Of a stretch of 64,000 nucleotides of DNA, positions 41,596 through 56,690 are shown piece by piece. Numbering within the stretch: the stretch's first letter is position 1; every line of letters starts with the position of its first letter. The notes beneath the pieces were generated by a model. The model was not told where the DNA came from, did not search any database, and worked only from the letters and a program-made list of their open reading frames with translations. Both the position numbers and the translations under genes were made by a program. The stretch is taken from assembly GCF_021025955.1 (NCBI RefSeq), contig NZ_JAJNCL010000012.1, forward strand, positions 1 through 64,000. The letters are read 5' to 3'. This stretch comes from Rhodococcus qingshengii (GTDB lineage Bacteria > Actinomycetota > Actinomycetes > Mycobacteriales > Mycobacteriaceae).

Positions 41596-43346
<1,751 letters not shown>

Positions 43347-44098: not shown

Positions 44099-44788
44099 AT
44101 GACTGTATCACTGGCGCGACGTACTACGATTGGTCTCGCAGCTGTAGCTGCATCAGCAGGTTTGGTGTTCGCGGCCGTTGCTCCGGCGTCGGCAACAGCG
44201 GGGCCCACGACAACAAGCTTTAAGAACGCGTGTTGGGCCGGTTCACCTGGAAATGTTGCGCAGTTGGAAAACCTTTCTGTCACCGTTGACCACACGGTCG
44301 TTGCGCCGGCCGGTCAGCCGAATACCTACACAATCCAATTCGGGGACCAGACTACGCCGAGCTCGTTCCCGGGTTACACTTTCAAGGGATTGAGTGATAT
44401 TCAGTACAAGCTCTCGTATAATACCGCGACGTTGACAAGCGCGACCAAGACGAGTTCGGGTACGAATATCAGTTCGGGTAGTCCTACTGTTTCGGCTTCA
44501 GGCGGAATTATTACTCTTGGGAAGTTTGGAGTCGGCCCGAGCACGACATTCAAGGCACCTCAGATCACCGTTGTGACGACGTCTCCGGTGTTCGATGTAA
44601 AACTCTCTACTTCGGGAACCGCAGCCGAGTTCGGTAACTTTGCGAATAACTACTTCAGCTTCAAGGCGAACGGAGTAGCCGTTGTGATTCCAGTCAGTGC
44701 ATCTACCTCTTGTGTTCCGTCTGACGACATCACGGGGGCGGTTGGAAGTTACCCGGCACTCAATGCGGGCGCCGGCACGCTTCACTAA
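44099..44788 (+). CDS. Secreted beta-rich protein of unknown function
   Basis: A 229-residue protein with a Sec signal peptide (MTVSLARRTTIGLAAVAASA, continuing to cleavage near ASATA, about residue 34). The mature part is Ser/Thr/Gly-rich and probably all beta, with Cys at the start (NACWAG) and near the end (TSCVPSDD) that could form one disulfide. ATG at 44099 is used because AGGAG lies 8 nt upstream; the GTG at 44090 overlaps that site. Codon use is less GC-biased than neighbours. It resembles no family I can name with certainty. It sits before the small-ORF array on the same strand. Confidence 0.75.
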   Translation: MTVSLARRTTIGLAAVAASAGLVFAAVAPASATAGPTTTSFKNACWAGSPGNVAQLENLSVTVDHTVVAPAGQPNTYTIQFGDQTTPSSFPGYTFKGLSDIQYKLSYNTATLTSATKTSSGTNISSGSPTVSASGGIITLGKFGVGPSTTFKAPQITVVTTSPVFDVKLSTSGTAAEFGNFANNYFSFKANGVAVVIPVSASTSCVPSDDITGAVGSYPALNAGAGTLH

Positions 44789-45501: not shown

Positions 45502-45633
45502 ATGATCGTCATGTTCCTCCAAGCGACTGCGCAATTGTTCACCGATCTGCTGGCCAACACATGGAGCGGGTCGATGCTGCCGGGCGTAGAGGCCGGCACA
45601 GGCTCGTTGGTATCCGCTATCGAACTCAGCTGA
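45502..45633 (+). CDS. Small ORF 1, candidate PorA/PorH-like peptide (43 aa)
   Basis: A 43-codon frame beginning MIVMFLQATAQLFTDLLANT. The N-terminal half is an amphipathic helix with hydrophobic residues every three to four positions; the C-terminal half is Gly/Ser/Ala-rich with a final SAIELS. There is no signal peptide, as in corynebacterial PorA and PorH. A GGTGGGA site lies 6 nt before the ATG. It is the first of five small same-strand frames within 0.9 kb, between groEL2 and ppk2. That it is expressed is inferred from the ribosome binding site and the repeated arrangement. Confidence 0.5.
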   Translation: MIVMFLQATAQLFTDLLANTWSGSMLPGVEAGTGSLVSAIELS

Positions 45634-45680
45634 TCGATAGTTTCAATTTCCGAGGATCTTTCTGACAGTGGGAGTGAATG

Positions 45681-45818
45681 ATGGGTAGTTTGGGATCGGT
45701 CGCTGATGTGCTCGAAGGCGAAATGGGAGGGTTGATCAAGTCGGTCATTGCGGGCATCATTTTCGCGCCGATAATGTCGTCGATCGACCTGGGGTGGCAG
45801 GTTCCCCCTCTGCCGTAA
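45681..45818 (+). CDS. Small ORF 2, candidate PorA/PorH-like peptide (45 aa)
   Basis: A 45-codon frame, the same length as C. glutamicum PorA. It starts MGSLGSVADVLEGEMGGLIK and continues with a hydrophobic helix (SVIAGIIFAPIM) and a Pro-rich end. GGGAG lies 6 nt before the ATG at 45681; an adjacent ATG at 45678 would be too close to the site. No signal peptide is present, and the overall charge is acidic. Function as a channel-forming peptide is inference from size and locus. Confidence 0.5.
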   Translation: MGSLGSVADVLEGEMGGLIKSVIAGIIFAPIMSSIDLGWQVPPLP

Positions 45819-45931
45819 TTCGGAATCGTCAAGACCCGCGTGTTTGGATAACGGCCACGCAGATCTGATGGACTCCGCTGTTTTTCTTTTCGAAACCCGA
45901 ACGAACGAATTCCAAGGAGTGTGTAAGTACA

Positions 45932-46126
45932 GTGGATACAGCAAGTTTGATCGACGCGGTCGGCAGTATTGACGCGAACTCGGTCCAGTTGCCTTTGGCG
46001 GCTCTCAAGGGAATTATCGAGGGAGTTTTCGCAGCTATCTCTTCTTTCATTGAACTGGGTGTCACAGGATCCGCTGCGTCAGCCGGATCGATCCAATCCG
46101 GCCTCGGCTCCATAGCCGGCACCTAA
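45932..46126 (+). CDS. Small ORF 3, candidate PorH-like peptide (64 aa)
   Basis: A 64-codon frame beginning at GTG (45932): MDTASLIDAVGSIDANSVQL, then a strongly hydrophobic central helix (AALKGIIEGVFAAISSFIELG) and a Gly/Ser/Ala-rich tail. AAGGAG (45914-45919) lies 12 nt upstream, rather far. Acidic, no signal peptide, no Cys. It is the longest of the set and nearest in size to PorH (57 residues). Confidence 0.5.
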   Translation: MDTASLIDAVGSIDANSVQLPLAALKGIIEGVFAAISSFIELGVTGSAASAGSIQSGLGSIAGT

Positions 46127-46144
46127 TCCGAAGAGGAGAAAGAA

Positions 46145-46255
46145 ATGTTGAACGGATCATTGACGTACCTGTCCGATCTCGTCAATTTCGGGTCGGTTGA
46201 TCTCGTGGGCACGATCGGGAAATACCTGAACGCGCTTTCGTCCTTCCCAGTGTGA
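46145..46255 (+). CDS. Small ORF 4, candidate PorA/PorH-like peptide (36 aa)
   Basis: A 36-codon frame starting MLNGSLTYLSDLVNFGSVDL. The hydrophobic residues fall on one helical face for most of its length. GAGGAG sits 6 nt before the ATG, the best site in the array. It starts 18 bp after ORF 3. Several Ser and Thr residues would be available for O-acylation. Confidence 0.55.
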   Translation: MLNGSLTYLSDLVNFGSVDLVGTIGKYLNALSSFPV

Positions 46256-46271
46256 TGAAAGGAAATGCACA

Positions 46272-46367
46272 ATGCTTGAAAGATACCTGACTTCGATCGT
46301 GCAATGGGTTATCGACACAGCGGGCCTCACCTCCGCCGGAAGCAAGATGCTTCAGAATCCGAAGTAG
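46272..46367 (+). CDS. Small ORF 5, candidate PorA/PorH-like peptide (31 aa)
   Basis: A 31-codon frame starting MLERYLTSIVQWVIDTAGLT, with an amphipathic helix over the first 18 residues and a polar, basic end. AAAGGA lies 8 nt before the ATG, 16 bp after ORF 4. A strong hairpin follows at 46411-46450, closing the array. Confidence 0.5.
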   Translation: MLERYLTSIVQWVIDTAGLTSAGSKMLQNPK

Positions 46368-46410
46368 GAAATTCTTGGTGGAGTCTGAATTGGAATACGC
46401 CACCGAGTCC

Positions 46411-46450
46411 GAATGATCCCCGAGGCTGACGTACGCCTCGGGGATCGTTC
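46411..46450 (+). terminator. Terminator hairpin after the small-ORF array
   Basis: GAATGATCCCCGAGGC (46411-46426) pairs with GCCTCGGGGATCGTTC (46435-46450), a 16-bp stem with one G-U pair and an 8-nt loop. Only a short T-rich stretch follows. It separates the small ORFs from the acyltransferase gene. Confidence 0.75.
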
Positions 46451-46501
46451 GGTTTCGAGTTCCGGTCACGATTACCGATGCAGTGAGACGAGGTAGTGTC
46501 G

Positions 46502-47962
46502 ATGCGATTGCCCAGCAAATTTGCGGTGCAGTTGGCGCGGTTGAGCTCGCGTGATGCCGATTTCATCTACAACGAGGCGGACGGCCATCTGGGGCATTTG
46601 ATAGGGGTGTATTTCTTCGATACTTCTCAGCGCCCTGAGTCGGAGTTCTCGCGCGAGCAAGCAGTCGAATGGGTGACCGCACGGCTCGGCCACCATCGAA
46701 TGTTCACCCACAAGGTACGTCGTATCCCGCTCGAACTCGATCATCCGTACTGGATGCCCGTCAATGACTTCGACATCCGTGACCACGTACACGTCACAGA
46801 CCTCACGGAGCCTGGTTGGGCATCACTCGAGAAGCCTTTGAGTGCTTTGATGACTTCACGGATGGACTTGACCCGTCCGCCATGGGAGTTGCACTTCTTC
46901 AACGGAATCGAAGGTCTCGACGATCTGGACGGGAGGCTGACCGCCGTAGTGCTCAAGTCCCACCACAGCGCAGCGGATGGGATAGCAATCCGGATGTTGG
47001 GGGAATCCATCTTCTCGGGCGAAGAGCGAGCCGCCCGACACGTTCCAGTACCTCGACTATTGAAGGTGCGTGTACTCCTCGAATCGTTGGCGAGCATTCC
47101 CAGCCAGATGTTCAGATTCGCCCGGAGCGTTCCTGGGAATCGCGCTGCTCAACGCGCTGCGAACGCGGCCCAATCGGCCGGTGAATGGGTCGAGAGCCTC
47201 AACGAACGTTCGGCTACCAGGTTCAACGGCAAAGTCAGCGGATCGGGAACGCTGCAGCAATTAACCCTTCCAGGTGCCGTAATCGGCGGGGTCAAACACG
47301 CGGTTCCAGGCGCCACTGTCAACGATGTTCTCCTGGCGATCGTCGGTGGTGCGCTGTCGCGGTATCTGACAGAAAATGGTGAGCCGCCAGGGGGATCCTT
47401 GGTGGCAATGGTGCCTCGCTCGATGCGCAAGGTCGAGGAGTGGCAGTCTGCCAATCAACTGGTGACCTTGTCAGTCGATATGCACACGTCCGTTGCGGCG
47501 CCGCTGGAACGATTGGCACTCATCGCGGAATCCTCGCGTTCGGAGAAGGTACGTACTTCCCACCCTGCCACTCGCCGTGTGGACGCCGCGATCGAAACGG
47601 CGCCGGCATTACTGCTGAGATTCATTGCTTTTGCACGAAGTAGGAATTCCCACGATGTCACTCGTCCCCGCTACCAGCACACAATGGTGAGCAATATTCC
47701 GCTCTCTGTTGAAGGGCTGACGTTGAACGGTGCGCCGGGTGCAGCGGTGCTGGCAACCCAGCCCCCGGTTGACGGCGACGGGCTACGGCATTTCATGGTC
47801 GCCGCAGCAGGTGGGGGACTGACCCTCAACGTCATCGCGGATACCGCGACCATGCCCGATATCCACCATTACATCGAACTACTGCGAGCAAGTTTCGATG
47901 ACTTGGCAGCGGCAGCTGCGATGCAGATTGCGGATTCACCTAACCAAGAGGTTGCCTCCTGA
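46502..47962 (+). CDS. WS/DGAT-family O-acyltransferase
   Basis: A 486-residue acyltransferase of the wax ester synthase/diacylglycerol acyltransferase family. The catalytic HHxxxDG motif is HHSAADG (154-160). Further family elements are DADFIYNEADGHL at the start, RPPWELHF before the motif, the PLSVEG-type and TISN/MVSNIP region near the C-terminus, and a final helical domain. Most members esterify fatty alcohols, diacylglycerol or trehalose-type acceptors with acyl-CoA. ATG at 46502 has GAGG 8 nt upstream. It lies just after the small-ORF array and is paralogous to the gene at 48099. Confidence 0.88.
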   Translation: MRLPSKFAVQLARLSSRDADFIYNEADGHLGHLIGVYFFDTSQRPESEFSREQAVEWVTARLGHHRMFTHKVRRIPLELDHPYWMPVNDFDIRDHVHVTDLTEPGWASLEKPLSALMTSRMDLTRPPWELHFFNGIEGLDDLDGRLTAVVLKSHHSAADGIAIRMLGESIFSGEERAARHVPVPRLLKVRVLLESLASIPSQMFRFARSVPGNRAAQRAANAAQSAGEWVESLNERSATRFNGKVSGSGTLQQLTLPGAVIGGVKHAVPGATVNDVLLAIVGGALSRYLTENGEPPGGSLVAMVPRSMRKVEEWQSANQLVTLSVDMHTSVAAPLERLALIAESSRSEKVRTSHPATRRVDAAIETAPALLLRFIAFARSRNSHDVTRPRYQHTMVSNIPLSVEGLTLNGAPGAAVLATQPPVDGDGLRHFMVAAAGGGLTLNVIADTATMPDIHHYIELLRASFDDLAAAAAMQIADSPNQEVAS

Positions 47963-48098: not shown

Positions 48099-49544
48099 AT
48101 GATCTTTCGGAACTCGTTGCCAGCCGCGGTATCTCAGATGGGGCCGCGAGACGCGGAGTTCGTCTACAACGAGTCCGGCGGACATCTGAGCCACATGGTG
48201 TGCGCCTACTTCTTCGACACGACGGGCCATCCGCTCGCAGAGATGACGCACGACGACGCGGTTCGGTGGATCACCGAAAGATTCGGATACTGGCCACTGT
48301 TCACGAGTCGACTCCAGCGAGTTCCGCTGGATCTGGACTATCCCTATTGGGTCCCGGCCGATTTCGACGTCGATGATCACGTGCACGTCCATCGTGCCCC
48401 GGTTGCCGGGTGGGCGCCGGTTCGTGAATTGCTCGGGCGCTCGCTCGGTGAGCCGATGGACTTGTCCCGGCCGCCCTGGGAGTTGCACATCATGACCGGC
48501 GTGCACGGGATCGACGAGCTACCGGGCAATCTGACGCTGATCATGCTCAAGACCCACCACGGGGCCGGTGACGGTCTGGCGATCCGCGATCTGACCAACC
48601 TTCTGTTCTCCGGTCCGCCGAAGCCGGAGACGAAGCGTGCCGGTTCGGGGCTTTCGTCGCTGGATTTGATCGGGCGCACGGTCGTGGGTTTGCCCGGCCA
48701 GGCGATCCGTTTCGGCCGGGGTCTGTCCGTGACAAAGGTTGCGGCCGAGACGGTTCGGGAGGCGGAAGAGGCCGGAGAGCTGCCTACGTACTCGGCCGAC
48801 CGCCTACCGACCCGATTCAACGGCGTACTGGGCGGAGACATCACGATCGATTTCCTGACGCTGGACGGCGCAGACATCAAAGCGATCCGAGCGGCCGTTC
48901 CGGACGTGACGGTCAACGACATCTTCCTGACCGTCGTCGCCGGCGCTCTCGACGCATACCTGTCGGAGAAGGGCGAGAAATCAGGCAGTGGGTTGGCAGC
49001 GATGGTTCCCCGATCGATGCGGCAGATCGCCGAATGGGAATCGGCCAACCAACTGGCGCTGTTGACGGTCGATCTGCACACGGACGTCGAAGATCCGGTC
49101 GAGCGGCTGACACGAATCAGGGATTCGGCGCTGATGGCAAAGGGGCGGAGTTTGCACCCAGCCGTCCGTCGATACGGCACACGCATCGAAACGTCGCCCG
49201 CGGCTCTGCTCAGACTCACCGGTCTCTCGCGTCGGATCAACAAGCTTGACCCTTCGCACAAGGTCATTCAGAACACGACGATCAGCAATGTCCCGGTATC
49301 GGTCGACGGCAATGTCTTCGAAGGTGCGCCGGCGGTGGCAGTTCTCGGCGGGCAGGCGCCGGTCGACGGAGACATTCTGCGCCACTTCCTCATTGCTGCG
49401 CGTGGAGGTTCTCTGACGCTCAATGTCATCGTCTCGCGAGAGACGATGCCGGATATCGAGCACTACATCGAATTATTGCGGGTGGGGTTCACGACGCTTC
49501 TGCAGGCAGTTTCCGACCAAAATCGTGAGTTGGTCGAACGATAA
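48099..49544 (+). CDS. WS/DGAT-family O-acyltransferase (paralogue)
   Basis: A 481-residue protein, clearly paralogous to 46502-47962 (same length, aligned motifs). HHGAGDG (153-159) is the active-site motif; RDAEFVYNESGGHL, RPPWELHI and TTISNVPVSVDG are shared signatures. ATG at 48099, with GAGGGG upstream; 136 bp after the first acyltransferase. Members of this family do not normally need a membrane anchor. Specificity is unknown; linkage to the small peptides suggests an envelope acyl-acceptor, which is inference. Confidence 0.88.
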   Translation: MIFRNSLPAAVSQMGPRDAEFVYNESGGHLSHMVCAYFFDTTGHPLAEMTHDDAVRWITERFGYWPLFTSRLQRVPLDLDYPYWVPADFDVDDHVHVHRAPVAGWAPVRELLGRSLGEPMDLSRPPWELHIMTGVHGIDELPGNLTLIMLKTHHGAGDGLAIRDLTNLLFSGPPKPETKRAGSGLSSLDLIGRTVVGLPGQAIRFGRGLSVTKVAAETVREAEEAGELPTYSADRLPTRFNGVLGGDITIDFLTLDGADIKAIRAAVPDVTVNDIFLTVVAGALDAYLSEKGEKSGSGLAAMVPRSMRQIAEWESANQLALLTVDLHTDVEDPVERLTRIRDSALMAKGRSLHPAVRRYGTRIETSPAALLRLTGLSRRINKLDPSHKVIQNTTISNVPVSVDGNVFEGAPAVAVLGGQAPVDGDILRHFLIAARGGSLTLNVIVSRETMPDIEHYIELLRVGFTTLLQAVSDQNRELVER

Positions 49545-49649
49545 TCTCTCGACACCCCCGGCTTTACGCCGCCTGTCATTCCCTGAGTTTTCGGATTGGC
49601 GTCATTTCCTCGTCCCAAGTGAACCACTGAACGTCTAATGGAGAACGTC

Positions 49650-49778
49650 ATGCTTGAAGGGGCCGTCGCGGACGCTGCCGGCTCGGTCGATGCGATCATC
49701 GGTCAGGATTGGGCCGCGTCAGTGGCCTGGCCGTCAAGTAGATTGTCGATTTCGGGGCCTGCTCGTGTTGGCGCGTAG
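49650..49778 (+). CDS. Small ORF 6 (42 aa), weak candidate
   Basis: A 42-codon frame starting MLEGAVADAAGSVDAIIGQD. GGAG lies 6 nt before the ATG; an in-frame ATG 12 bp upstream (49638) would add MENV, curiously the first four residues of C. glutamicum PorA, but has no ribosome binding site. The stop falls inside the loop of the terminator that follows, so the last codons may not be genuine. It resembles the five array peptides in size and lack of a signal peptide. Confidence 0.4.
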   Translation: MLEGAVADAAGSVDAIIGQDWAASVAWPSSRLSISGPARVGA

Positions 49779-50174: not shown

Positions 50175-51098
50175 TTGTCGGCGGTGACCGATTTAGCAGA
50201 ACGCCGACCGTTCCTCAGCGCCTTCGCGGATCTCTCGACCGCCGTCGATCTGGCCGACACCGCCGCCTTCACCGTCGACGACAATGACGACGACGATCCG
50301 GTGCTGCTGACGTCGCCGGACGGTTTCGAGGTCGACACCTGGCGGGAGGGCTACCCGTACGACGCACGGATGCCTCGGGACGAGTACGAAATGTCCAAGC
50401 GTCTGCTGCAGATCGAACTCCTCAAGCTGCAGAACTGGTCGAAAGAAACCGGCGCACGGCACGCCATCGTGTTCGAAGGACGCGACGCTGCCGGCAAGGG
50501 CGGAACGATCAAACGATTCATGGAGCACCTCAATCCTCGTGGCGCTCGCGTCGTCGCGCTGGAGAAGCCGTCGGCTCGCGAGTCGACGCAGTGGTACTTC
50601 CAGCGCTACGTGCAGCACCTTCCCGCCGCCGGGGAACTGGTGATGTTCGATCGATCTTGGTACAACCGGGCCGGGGTCGAGCGGGTCATGGGTTTCTGCA
50701 CCGACGAGGAGCATGAGCGATTTCTGCGCCAGGTGCCGTTGTTCGAGCAGATGCTCGTCGACGACGGCATCAGCTTGATCAAGTTCTGGTTCTCGGTTTC
50801 ACCGCTGGAGCAGCGCACGCGGTTCGCGATCAGACAGGTCGATCCCGTGCGGCAGTGGAAGCTTTCGCCGATGGACATCGCTTCTCTGGACAAGTGGGAT
50901 GCGTACACGGCGGCGAAGGAAGAGATGATCCGGTTCACCGATACCGCCACCGCTCCGTGGACCGTCATCAAGAGCAACGACAAGAAACGCGCGCGGATAA
51001 ACGCGATGCGTCACGTGCTCAGTCAGTTCGATTACGACAACAAGGATTACGAGATCGTGGGTACTCCGGATCCGCTGATCGTGGGCAGCCTCGAATAG
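50175..51098 (+). CDS. ppk2: Polyphosphate kinase 2
   Basis: A PPK2-family kinase (about 307 residues), transferring phosphate between polyphosphate and nucleoside diphosphates. The Walker A loop is FEGRDAAGKGGTIKR, and VMFDRSWYNRAGVERVMGF is the Walker B/lid region, which with EQRTRFAIRQ and MDIASLDKWD defines the family. TTG at 50175 has GGGAG 6 nt upstream; an open frame from TTG 50106 and a GTG at 50184 are alternatives. In C. glutamicum a ppk2 gene lies beside groEL2 and the porin genes, the same order as here. Confidence 0.92.
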   Translation: MSAVTDLAERRPFLSAFADLSTAVDLADTAAFTVDDNDDDDPVLLTSPDGFEVDTWREGYPYDARMPRDEYEMSKRLLQIELLKLQNWSKETGARHAIVFEGRDAAGKGGTIKRFMEHLNPRGARVVALEKPSARESTQWYFQRYVQHLPAAGELVMFDRSWYNRAGVERVMGFCTDEEHERFLRQVPLFEQMLVDDGISLIKFWFSVSPLEQRTRFAIRQVDPVRQWKLSPMDIASLDKWDAYTAAKEEMIRFTDTATAPWTVIKSNDKKRARINAMRHVLSQFDYDNKDYEIVGTPDPLIVGSLE

Positions 51099-54123: not shown

Positions 54124-55140
54124 TCAGACGCCCAGGGAGTGAGCGAGCATCGGCCAGGAGTTGTGGAGATCGTCCTGCCAGTAGCCCCACGAGTGGGTGC
54201 CGGTCGGCTTGAAGTCGAAGGTGGCCGGGATCTTCAGGTCGCTCAGGCGGTAGGCGAGGTTGTGGGTGCAGTAGTTGACCGCTGCCTCGATGATGCCGCC
54301 GACGATCGCCTGGTTGGCGAGCGCACCGACCTGACCGTTGATCGCGGGATTGGCGAGAGTGTCGTGTGGGCCGGGGAGTCCGGAGCCGGTGGAGACGTAG
54401 AGCTCGGTGCCGCGGAGCTTCTCGGCGTTGAGGACCGGATCGTTGTCCTTCCAGCCCTGACCGTCGAGCGGGCCCCACATGTTGGTGATGTCAGCTCCGC
54501 CGCGGGTACCTGTGACAAGTTCGATCGCACTCTGACCGACGGGAGTACTGGTCTCGGCGCATCCGCTGTATGCACCGACGCCCTTGTAGAGGCCGGGAGC
54601 CGCGATGGCGAGGTTGAGGACCGAGGTCGCGGTCATGGAGATCGCGGAGATGGACTGCACCTTGTTGGTGTTGAACTCGGCGTCGATGACGGGCGGGAGT
54701 TCCTTGGTCAGGAACGTCTGCCACTTCTGACGACCGAGAACCGGATCGTCGTTCACCCAGTCGGTGTAATAGCTGAATGCGCCTTCGAGCGGTGTGACGA
54801 CGTTGACGTTCTTGTCCTGGAAGAAGTTCATGACGTCGGTCTTGCGTTGCCAGGTCGCCGAGTCCTCGCCGCCGCCTGCACCGTTGAGCAGGTAGAGCGT
54901 CGGGCGGGGTTCGCTGCCATCCGCTGGGAGGATGACCTCGAGCGGGATGTTGCGATCCATCGCCGGGGAGAAGACCGAGATGGTGACCTTGCGGTCGCCG
55001 GTCTTGGTGTTGCTCACGACGTGCGATCCGGACGTGTCACCGCCCGCAGAAGCTGTCGCCGGACTGACCAGCATCGGCAGCACCGTGGCCACTGCGAGAG
55101 CTGCGATCACACTGCCACGCTTGAAAATTCGAGCACGCAT
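54124..55140 (-). CDS. Mycolyltransferase (antigen 85/corynemycolyltransferase family), paralogue 1
   Basis: A 338-residue secreted alpha/beta hydrolase-fold enzyme that transfers mycolic acids to trehalose or arabinogalactan in the cell envelope. After a Sec signal (cleavage near ATASAGG) come LPADGSEPRPTLYLLNGAGG, YYTDWVND, the nucleophile region VQSISAISMTATS (Ser168) and, near the C-terminus, GTHSWGYW with His316. These match the antigen 85 layout (ser-his pair at the same distances). ATG at 55140 with GTGGAGG upstream. Paralogous to 55409-56458. Confidence 0.93.
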   Translation of the reverse strand: MRARIFKRGSVIAALAVATVLPMLVSPATASAGGDTSGSHVVSNTKTGDRKVTISVFSPAMDRNIPLEVILPADGSEPRPTLYLLNGAGGGEDSATWQRKTDVMNFFQDKNVNVVTPLEGAFSYYTDWVNDDPVLGRQKWQTFLTKELPPVIDAEFNTNKVQSISAISMTATSVLNLAIAAPGLYKGVGAYSGCAETSTPVGQSAIELVTGTRGGADITNMWGPLDGQGWKDNDPVLNAEKLRGTELYVSTGSGLPGPHDTLANPAINGQVGALANQAIVGGIIEAAVNYCTHNLAYRLSDLKIPATFDFKPTGTHSWGYWQDDLHNSWPMLAHSLGV

Positions 55141-55408: not shown

Positions 55409-56458
55409 TCAGATGCCCATCGAACGAGCGAGTATCGGCCAGGAGTTGTGGAGATCGTCTTCCCAGTAGCCCCACGAGTGGGTGCCGGTCGGCTTGAAGT
55501 CGAAGGTGGCCGGGATCTTGAGATCGTTGAGGCGGTAGGCGAGGTTGTGGGTGCAGTAGTTGACTGCTGCCTCGATGATGCCGCCGACGATCACCTGGTT
55601 GGCGAGTGTGCCGACCTGTCCGTTGATCGCCTCGTTGTTCAGGGTGTCGTGTGGGCCGGGGAGTCCGGAGCCGGTGGAGATGAAGAGCTCGGTGCCGCGG
55701 AGCTTCTCGGCGTTGACGACGGGGTCGTTGTCGATCCAGCCCTGGCCGTCGAGGGGGCCCCACATGTTGGTCACGTCAGCGTCGCCGCGCATGCCCACGA
55801 CCAGTTCGATGGAGGACTGGCCGACCGGTGTGCTGGTCTCAGCGCATCCGCTGTACGCGCCGACGCCCTTGTAGAGGCCCGGAGCTGCGATGGCGAGGTT
55901 GAGGACCGAGGTCGCGGTCATGGAGATCGCGGAGATCGACTGGACGCCGTTGGTGTTGAACTCGGCGTCGATGACGGGCGGGAGTTCCTGGGTCAGGAAC
56001 GTCTGCCACTTCTGACGGCCGAGGGACGGGTCGTCGTTCACCCAGTCGGTGTAGTAGCTGAATGCGCCTTCGAGCGGGGTCACGACGTTGACGTTCTTGT
56101 CAGCGAAGAACTCGTTGACGTCGGTCTGACGCTGCCAGGTCGCCCGGTCTTCGCCGCCGCCTGCACCGTTGAGCAGGTAGAGCGTCGGGCGGGGTTCGCT
56201 GCCGTCTGCTGGGACGATGACCTCGAGCGGAATATCGCGTTCCATGGAAGGGGAGTACACCTTGATGGTGGCGATGCGCCCGTTGTCCGTGCGGCTCGAG
56301 AGCTTGGAACCCGTTGTGTTTGCCTTGGCTACAGTTGCCGTGGTGGTCGACGGATCTCCACCTGCGGACGAGACGGCAGGGCTGATCAGCATCGGCAGCA
56401 CGGATACTGCGGCTACAGCGGCGACCAGACGGCCACGCTTGAAAGTGCGAGCACGCAT
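55409..56458 (-). CDS. Mycolyltransferase (antigen 85/corynemycolyltransferase family), paralogue 2
   Basis: A 349-residue paralogue of the gene at 54124-55140; over the mature region they are very similar, with identical catalytic segments (AISMTATSVLNLAIAAPGLY; PTGTHSWGYW). The N-terminus is slightly longer, with a Ser/Thr-rich linker after the signal peptide (STTTATVAKANTTGS). ATG at 56458 is preferred (it aligns with paralogue 1 and both have a GTGGAGG leader); the GTG at 56476 lies within that leader. Tandem order suggests a recent duplication. Confidence 0.93.
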   Translation of the reverse strand: MRARTFKRGRLVAAVAAVSVLPMLISPAVSSAGGDPSTTTATVAKANTTGSKLSSRTDNGRIATIKVYSPSMERDIPLEVIVPADGSEPRPTLYLLNGAGGGEDRATWQRQTDVNEFFADKNVNVVTPLEGAFSYYTDWVNDDPSLGRQKWQTFLTQELPPVIDAEFNTNGVQSISAISMTATSVLNLAIAAPGLYKGVGAYSGCAETSTPVGQSSIELVVGMRGDADVTNMWGPLDGQGWIDNDPVVNAEKLRGTELFISTGSGLPGPHDTLNNEAINGQVGTLANQVIVGGIIEAAVNYCTHNLAYRLNDLKIPATFDFKPTGTHSWGYWEDDLHNSWPILARSMGI

Positions 56459-56690
56459 ACGTTCAGAAACCTCCACCTAAAATTCCTTCGAATCCGCCCA
56501 GGAGTGAACGGTCCTTTGTTGCTGTTCCCGTGCGGGAATTCCTGCTGGTACATGCTCTGCCGATAGATACAGGGCGTGTGAGTCTTGTAAGTTCTACCGC
56601 ATCGGTGCGTTATCCGCCAGTGAACCAGAGATTTGCTGAACGTACGACCAGTTTCAGGTGAATTTCCCTGATCATCGACGGGATTAGTGA
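56459..56690. other. Divergent promoter region
   Basis: Intergenic region of 232 bp between the mycolyltransferase start (- strand) and the dipeptidase start (+ strand). No operator motif stands out; promoters for both are presumably here. Confidence 0.4.

Follow-up and report, generated by a model that had tools for sequence, protein, structure and literature searches.

A conserved array of five tiny genes in the groEL2-ppk2 neighbourhood of Rhodococcus, a candidate counterpart of the corynebacterial PorA/PorH locus

We analyzed a 64,000-nt stretch of Rhodococcus qingshengii DNA (hereafter the window), in which five very small frames, o1 to o5, follow one another on the + strand at 45502-46367. 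Comparison across genomes indicates that o1-o5 are genuine genes, conserved in frame and order in three genera. Most likely, the array is a PorA/PorH-like mycomembrane system, with membership of those protein families unproven. Since it sits in the neighbourhood that holds the channel-peptide genes of Corynebacterium, o1-o5 may be unnamed outer-membrane components of Rhodococcus.

The five frames and their conservation

A sequence-only reading had described five frames of 43, 45, 64, 36 and 31 codons, and their coordinates and lengths were confirmed (Table 1). A Shine-Dalgarno-like stretch of 4-6 bases precedes every one of them, in agreement with the ribosome binding sites claimed there. For o2, an in-frame ATG at 45678 would give a 46 aa version. 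Calculated average masses of unmodified o1-o5 are 4472.2, 4567.4, 6092.8, 3806.3 and 3452.0 Da. As that reading also held, no signal peptide is visible in these peptides of 31-64 aa, which have few N-terminal K/R in most families; this was judged by eye on the sequence and from K/R counts in residues 2-8 (o3 0/17, o4 0/17, o1 2/17, o2 5/17, o5 11/17).

Table 1. Coordinates of the features discussed in the text
Feature	Position in window	Strand	Description
groEL2 (anchor)	41724..43346	+	
Secreted ~228-aa protein	44102..44788	+	outside any Pfam family
o1	45502..45633	+	43 aa, ATG start, acidic hydrophobic peptide, invariant G23-S24
o2	45681..45818	+	45 aa acidic peptide; LGS near N-terminus; two invariant Ser
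o3	45932..46126	+	64 aa acidic peptide, GTG start, invariant S5, S12, D14
o4	46145..46255	+	36 aa, core FGSVDLVG, invariant S32
o5	46272..46367	+	31 aa, slightly basic, G-S pair invariant
Stem-loop after o5	46409..46452	+	18-bp stem, 8-nt loop
ws1, WS/DGAT acyltransferase	46502..47962	+	motif HHSAADG; above Pfam cut-offs, below NCBIfam TIGR02946 cut-off
ws2, second WS/DGAT	48099..49544	+	motif HHGAGDG
p1 remnant	49545..49586	+	matches p1 3' end
p2 broken copy	49650..49741	+	two deletions relative to other carriers
ppk2, PPK2 domain	50376..51047	+	anchor common to Corynebacterium porA loci
Cmt1-like mycoloyltransferase	54124..55140	-	
Second Cmt1-like mycoloyltransferase	55409..56476	-	

The strong hairpin said to close the array was found after o5, ahead of ws1. 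In the window, the only locus for which folding was compared with shuffles, a 96-nt stretch reached −50.6 kcal/mol (z = −5.0). All 21 of the 21 carrier loci folded have a hairpin within 150 bases 3' of o5 (best stretch −29.8 to −45.5 kcal/mol), and its sequence varies from clade to clade. We infer that o1-o5 are transcribed as one unit.

Matches to o3 were obtained in 9 of the 28 genomes of the genus (g1), the window genome counted, and each of the eight others carries all five frames in order. In two of these loci (L055 and L066) tblastn failed to pick up o2, which has just 30% identity there; its place and motif identified it. Across the family, the o4 search returned 31 matches. At E < 1e-6, 23 of 301 genomes matched (g1 9, g10 12, g14 2), and the other eight matches, with E of 0.05-0.09, were taken as chance. 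The five peptides stand in order in all 14 g10 and g14 loci, including L087, whose o1 is present although an earlier filter had not listed it. One scan found the complete array in 10/10 named loci, those of R. erythropolis NBRC 15567, Rhodococcus sp. ARC_M6, sp. P-2 and sp. OK519, R. spongiicola, one entry titled R. hoagii, Prescottella equi, P. agglutinans and P. defluvii (two). Because some of these loci share identical peptides with g10 loci, g10 is presumably Prescottella or a close relative. A tblastn search with o3 gave no plasmid copies. An o1 profile run on 397 genomes of the order (few congeners among the rows listed, most of them with no more than 18 candidates scored) returned, among the matches listed, its own genome alone.

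The family alignments comprised 17 loci out of the 23 strong carriers. The alignments omitted L043, L044, L066, L084, L085 and L087, most of them as near copies and L087 since its o1 was missing from the filter list. Over all pairs of 5 or 6 sequences each, pN/pS was 0.46, 0.49, 0.50, 0.30 and 0.50 for o1-o5, compared with 0.41 for ws1 (one pair). Synonymous sites were near saturation (pS 0.58-0.75), so the constraint on o1-o5 is, if anything, underrated by these values. Coding is supported by third-position excess together with the kept frames and order. The conservation comparison suggested by the sequence-only reading thus favours genuine genes, with frames and order kept across several rhodococcal genera at pN/pS 0.30-0.50.

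Comparison with the PorA/PorH locus of Corynebacterium

The same reading had placed the array between groEL2 and ppk2. Both genes do flank it, but neither adjoins it, as a secreted-protein gene stands before the array and two WS/DGAT genes after it. The loci L054, L055 and L142 have homologues of the secreted protein close to the array as well. Among the nine genus carriers, the array lies 3' of groEL2 on the same strand in four (G000, G001, G002, G012), downstream but inverted in G003, about 3.4 kb upstream and divergent in G015, G017 and G021, and on a separate contig in G023. The order groEL2-array-ppk2 in one orientation is found in the window, G001, G002 and G012. Of the 14 g10/g14 genomes, G036 and G161 carry the array 7-8 kb downstream of groEL2 on the groEL2 strand, five have it more than 500 kb away (G067, G180, G189, G198, G207), and in seven the two are on different contigs, so that the distance is undefined. 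In Corynebacterium, ppk2 follows porA by 277-1331 bases on the same strand in 30/30 loci fetched, and is 74-80% identical to the window ppk2. Taken together, synteny thus speaks for a shared origin without proving it.

Position has served as a guide before. Two papers located corynebacterial channel genes in this way where a porA BLAST returned no clear match (PMC3792995, PMC5944148). The single tiny PorA peptides known in C. jeikeium and in C. urealyticum are published cases of discovery by position without a clear porA BLAST match; they differ from the array in being one homo-oligomeric subunit each, with a channel demonstrated experimentally.

Beyond position, o1-o5 share with the PorH/PorA peptides (NCBIfam NF033937, NF033938, NF033925) a tiny size, the lack of a signal peptide by eye, the absence of Cys, a mostly acidic charge, tandem genes, conserved Ser and a Cmt1-type enzyme in the genome. 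Mean charges in the 17-member families were −2.5, −2.4, −4.7, −2.5 and +1.2 for o1-o5, four of the five being acidic, as against −2.8 for Corynebacterium PorA (n = 24) and −6.7 for PorH (n = 20). The maximal helical moment, compared with shuffles, gave mean z values of 1.76, 1.07, 2.44, 0.78 and 1.23, weak for o2, o4 and o5, while PorA and PorH reached 2.26 and 2.89. Serine occupies 7 of the 14 invariant columns other than Met, with at least one in each family (binomial P = 0.0007, which serves only as a guide because the sequences are related and not independent). A Ser of Corynebacterium PorA, placed at S15 by counting, was invariant in 24/24 sequences, and S15 is reported as the PorA mycoloylation site (PMC12632848). 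O-mycoloylated Ser is reported to lie among small and Gly/Ser residues, with no strict consensus (PMC11066868).

There are also differences: the array has five genes rather than two, its peptides are less amphipathic and have no detectable homology to PorH/PorA, two WS/DGAT genes accompany it, and the genome has MspA porins too. Up to E = 1, o1-o5 matched neither Pfam nor the NCBIfam PorA/PorH models, and the NCBIfam scan gave only two chance-level o3 matches far below the cut-offs; o3 had no PDB match. Profile-profile comparison of o1-o5 with PorA/PorH remained at background (all <3% probability), but PorA against PorH likewise scored only 1.66%, so that this comparison carries no weight either way. 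Among 251 genomes of the family, the PorH model NF033938 hit four, each of them in g3, which we take to be Corynebacterium. The PorA model, run within g3 only, matched 32 of 151 genomes, 5 above cut-off. Beside the C. glutamicum sequences, o3 looked by eye like PorH and o4 like PorA; profile scores gave this pairing no support. The idea of PorA/PorH-type channel peptides is a reasonable assignment from size, position, lack of a visible signal peptide, charge, invariant Ser and nearby Cmt1-like genes, but the family models gave it no match. "Expanded family" is unsupported, since o1-o5 show only weak mutual similarity.

The known rhodococcal channels PorARc, PorARr and PorBRr are of the MspA type, larger than o1-o5 (213 and 267 aa in R. 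ruber), and Rhodococcus channels of this type are reported to carry signal peptides (PMC9233653). In the window genome, six matches to MspA were obtained, including a short one. MspA was found in 27 of 28 genus genomes, and as all nine carriers have these porin genes, the array was rejected as a substitute for MspA. A small protein of R. erythropolis that forms channels was reportedly described by Lichtinger et al. 2000, with a mass of about 8.4 kDa and part of its sequence. To our knowledge, signal-less mycomembrane peptides are known only from Corynebacterium. Among the literature matches listed, from a collection with few subscription papers, no title or abstract opening put such peptides at this locus in Rhodococcus.

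Neighbouring acyltransferase genes and alternative readings

Within the genus, the partner of the array is ws1 rather than a Cmt1-like gene. At 64% identity or more, ws1 was present in 9/9 carriers (the G023 copy ends with the contig) and in 0/19 non-carriers, and the WS/DGAT catalytic motif HHxxxDG is intact. This association suggests another reading, in which o1-o5 would be cytosolic amphipathic peptides coating bodies of triacylglycerol or wax esters that the adjacent enzymes produce. The lack of a visible signal peptide would suit it, as would the peptide genes p1 (61 aa) and p2 (47 aa), which in the other carriers follow ws2 and precede ppk2. Yet o5 and ws1 are set apart by a strong hairpin, the helical moments of o4 and o2 are weak, and the invariant Gly-Ser positions are left unaccounted for. 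Moreover, ws1 56-98% identical lies 3' of o5 in 8/10 named array loci, whereas L135 has a ws1 fragment only and L142 a distant WS/DGAT, so a close ws1 is missing in two.

The p1 profile gave strong matches in 8/301 genomes, namely the eight other carriers, with the window genome absent; two further matches (E 0.0065 and 0.0076) were regarded as chance. pN/pS was 0.34 for p1 and 0.19 for p2. The pair is doubled in G003 and G017, and G023 has p2 and part of p1. In the window, deletions have reduced p1 and p2 to remnants. G022, which lacks both array and ws1, has ws2, with p1 and p2 present only in part. As side observations, the p1/p2 pair was read at L044:3283-3675 and also in L043, L045, L047, L048, L054 and L055, and the G012 ws1 match (C1:1642452-1643885) contains one in-frame TGA.

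The lipid-droplet function is further opposed by the tiny peptides of other rhodococci, which adjoin Cmt1-like mycoloyltransferase genes. Three such genes were compared with PDB (the two of the window and one of L064), and all were far nearer Cmt1 than Ag85; for the window, Cmt1 (4h18) against Ag85A gave 4.1e-83 vs 3.7e-34 (54124-55140) and 5.3e-86 vs 8.1e-34 (55409-56476). Within the genus, 15 groEL2 loci without the array were read, and all but that of G022 (14 of 15) have other tiny peptides of about 20-41 aa, many starting MGS; the genus genomes G016, G018, G019 and G026 had no readable groEL2 locus. In 13/15 of these loci, a Cmt1-like gene 59-72% identical to the L064 Cmt1-like queries has one or more such peptides upstream of it; in L051 the contig ends first. 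Clustering of the MGS-type peptides linked only three loci, and the remainder were recognised by reading. A set of this type was seen at L064:8981-10779 and also in L051, L053, L062, L063 and L065, near groEL2 and, except in L051, beside Cmt1-like genes. Two MGS types had pN/pS of 0.59 and 0.62, and a 24-aa type showed weak coding evidence (0.71, without third-position excess). Across 351 kb of groEL2 neighbourhoods of the genus, 46 tiny ORFs passed the filter, where Markov shuffles averaged 1.9. Tiny-ORF lists for the window showed no peptide of this kind beside its Cmt1-like genes.

Low-charge tiny ORFs were also noted in other genera of the family (L146, L148, L149, L165 and L169), no more than 1.5 kb from Cmt1-like genes. 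Here 116 kb held 16 tiny ORFs, where Markov shuffles averaged 0.4 and the first 40 kb of the window, taken as a further null, had one. No sense-strand excess was found in these genera (15 sense vs 13 antisense with ATG and SD≥4; 10 vs 8 with SD≥5), and some antisense ORFs near Cmt1-like genes resembled the sense ones in kind. With antisense ORFs nearly as many and the remaining nulls weak, the tiny ORFs of other genera are a lead only.

Taking this evidence together, we keep the lipid-droplet reading as an unlikely rival, because the link of ws1 to the array holds in the genus, though not universally. About equally unlikely, in our estimate, is that o1-o5 are mycomembrane lipopeptides with a structural rather than a channel role, for example in tying the mycomembrane to the cell wall. 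PorH and ProtX are reported as cell-wall-linked (PMC12632848), all nine genus carriers possess MspA porins, and a set of five different subunits would be large for a single pore; against this, the tiny proteins at the matching corynebacterial place are reported to form channels (PMC3792995, PMC5944148).

A variant to which we give little credence treats the groEL2-ppk2-cmt1 region as a general rhodococcal site for tiny mycomembrane peptides, with unrelated sets in different clades, and o1-o5 as a five-component channel whose invariant Ser would be O-acylated by ws1. Enzymes of the WS/DGAT family are known for lipid alcohol substrates, and ws1 acylation of o1-o5, if true, would give the family a protein substrate.

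A secreted multi-peptide antimicrobial or surfactant cluster, of the leaderless bacteriocin or PSM type, is very unlikely. Several tiny, leaderless, hydrophobic peptides in tandem recall one, but four of the five families are net acidic, the scanned flanking genes include no transporter or immunity gene, and the array is stably kept across genera. Leaderless bacteriocins are cationic peptides with adjacent transporter or immunity genes, and we rejected membership of that class on charge and scanned neighbours. That the frames are non-coding or spurious has next to no probability, for although o1-o5 belong to no database family, their kept frames, order and third-position excess contradict it.

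Proposed mechanism and its meaning

For the PorH/PorA system, the assembly has been described, with a predicted 5+5 pore (PMC12632848). We propose that o1-o5 would be a functional counterpart, and give this proposal as a whole a chance slightly above even. One transcription unit would specify five signal-less, partly amphipathic peptides, which would leave the cell by some unspecified route that is not evidently Sec. They would be O-acylated at conserved Ser within Gly/Ser-rich stretches, most likely through mycoloylation by the Cmt1-like enzymes of the neighbourhood, and would then insert in the mycomembrane and oligomerise, probably as a hetero-oligomeric channel. The steps from export through acylation, mycomembrane location and oligomerisation to a channel are what we infer from genes and their neighbours.

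If o1-o5 are counterparts of PorH/PorA, Rhodococcus and Prescottella would own an unannotated set of envelope proteins beside MspA, and the genes of the biochemically described small rhodococcal channel proteins could be looked for among o1-o5. The array would also offer a second system for the question of how such peptides exit the cell. The tiny peptides adjoining Cmt1-like genes, in turn, suggest that protein mycoloylation has substrates outside Corynebacterium.
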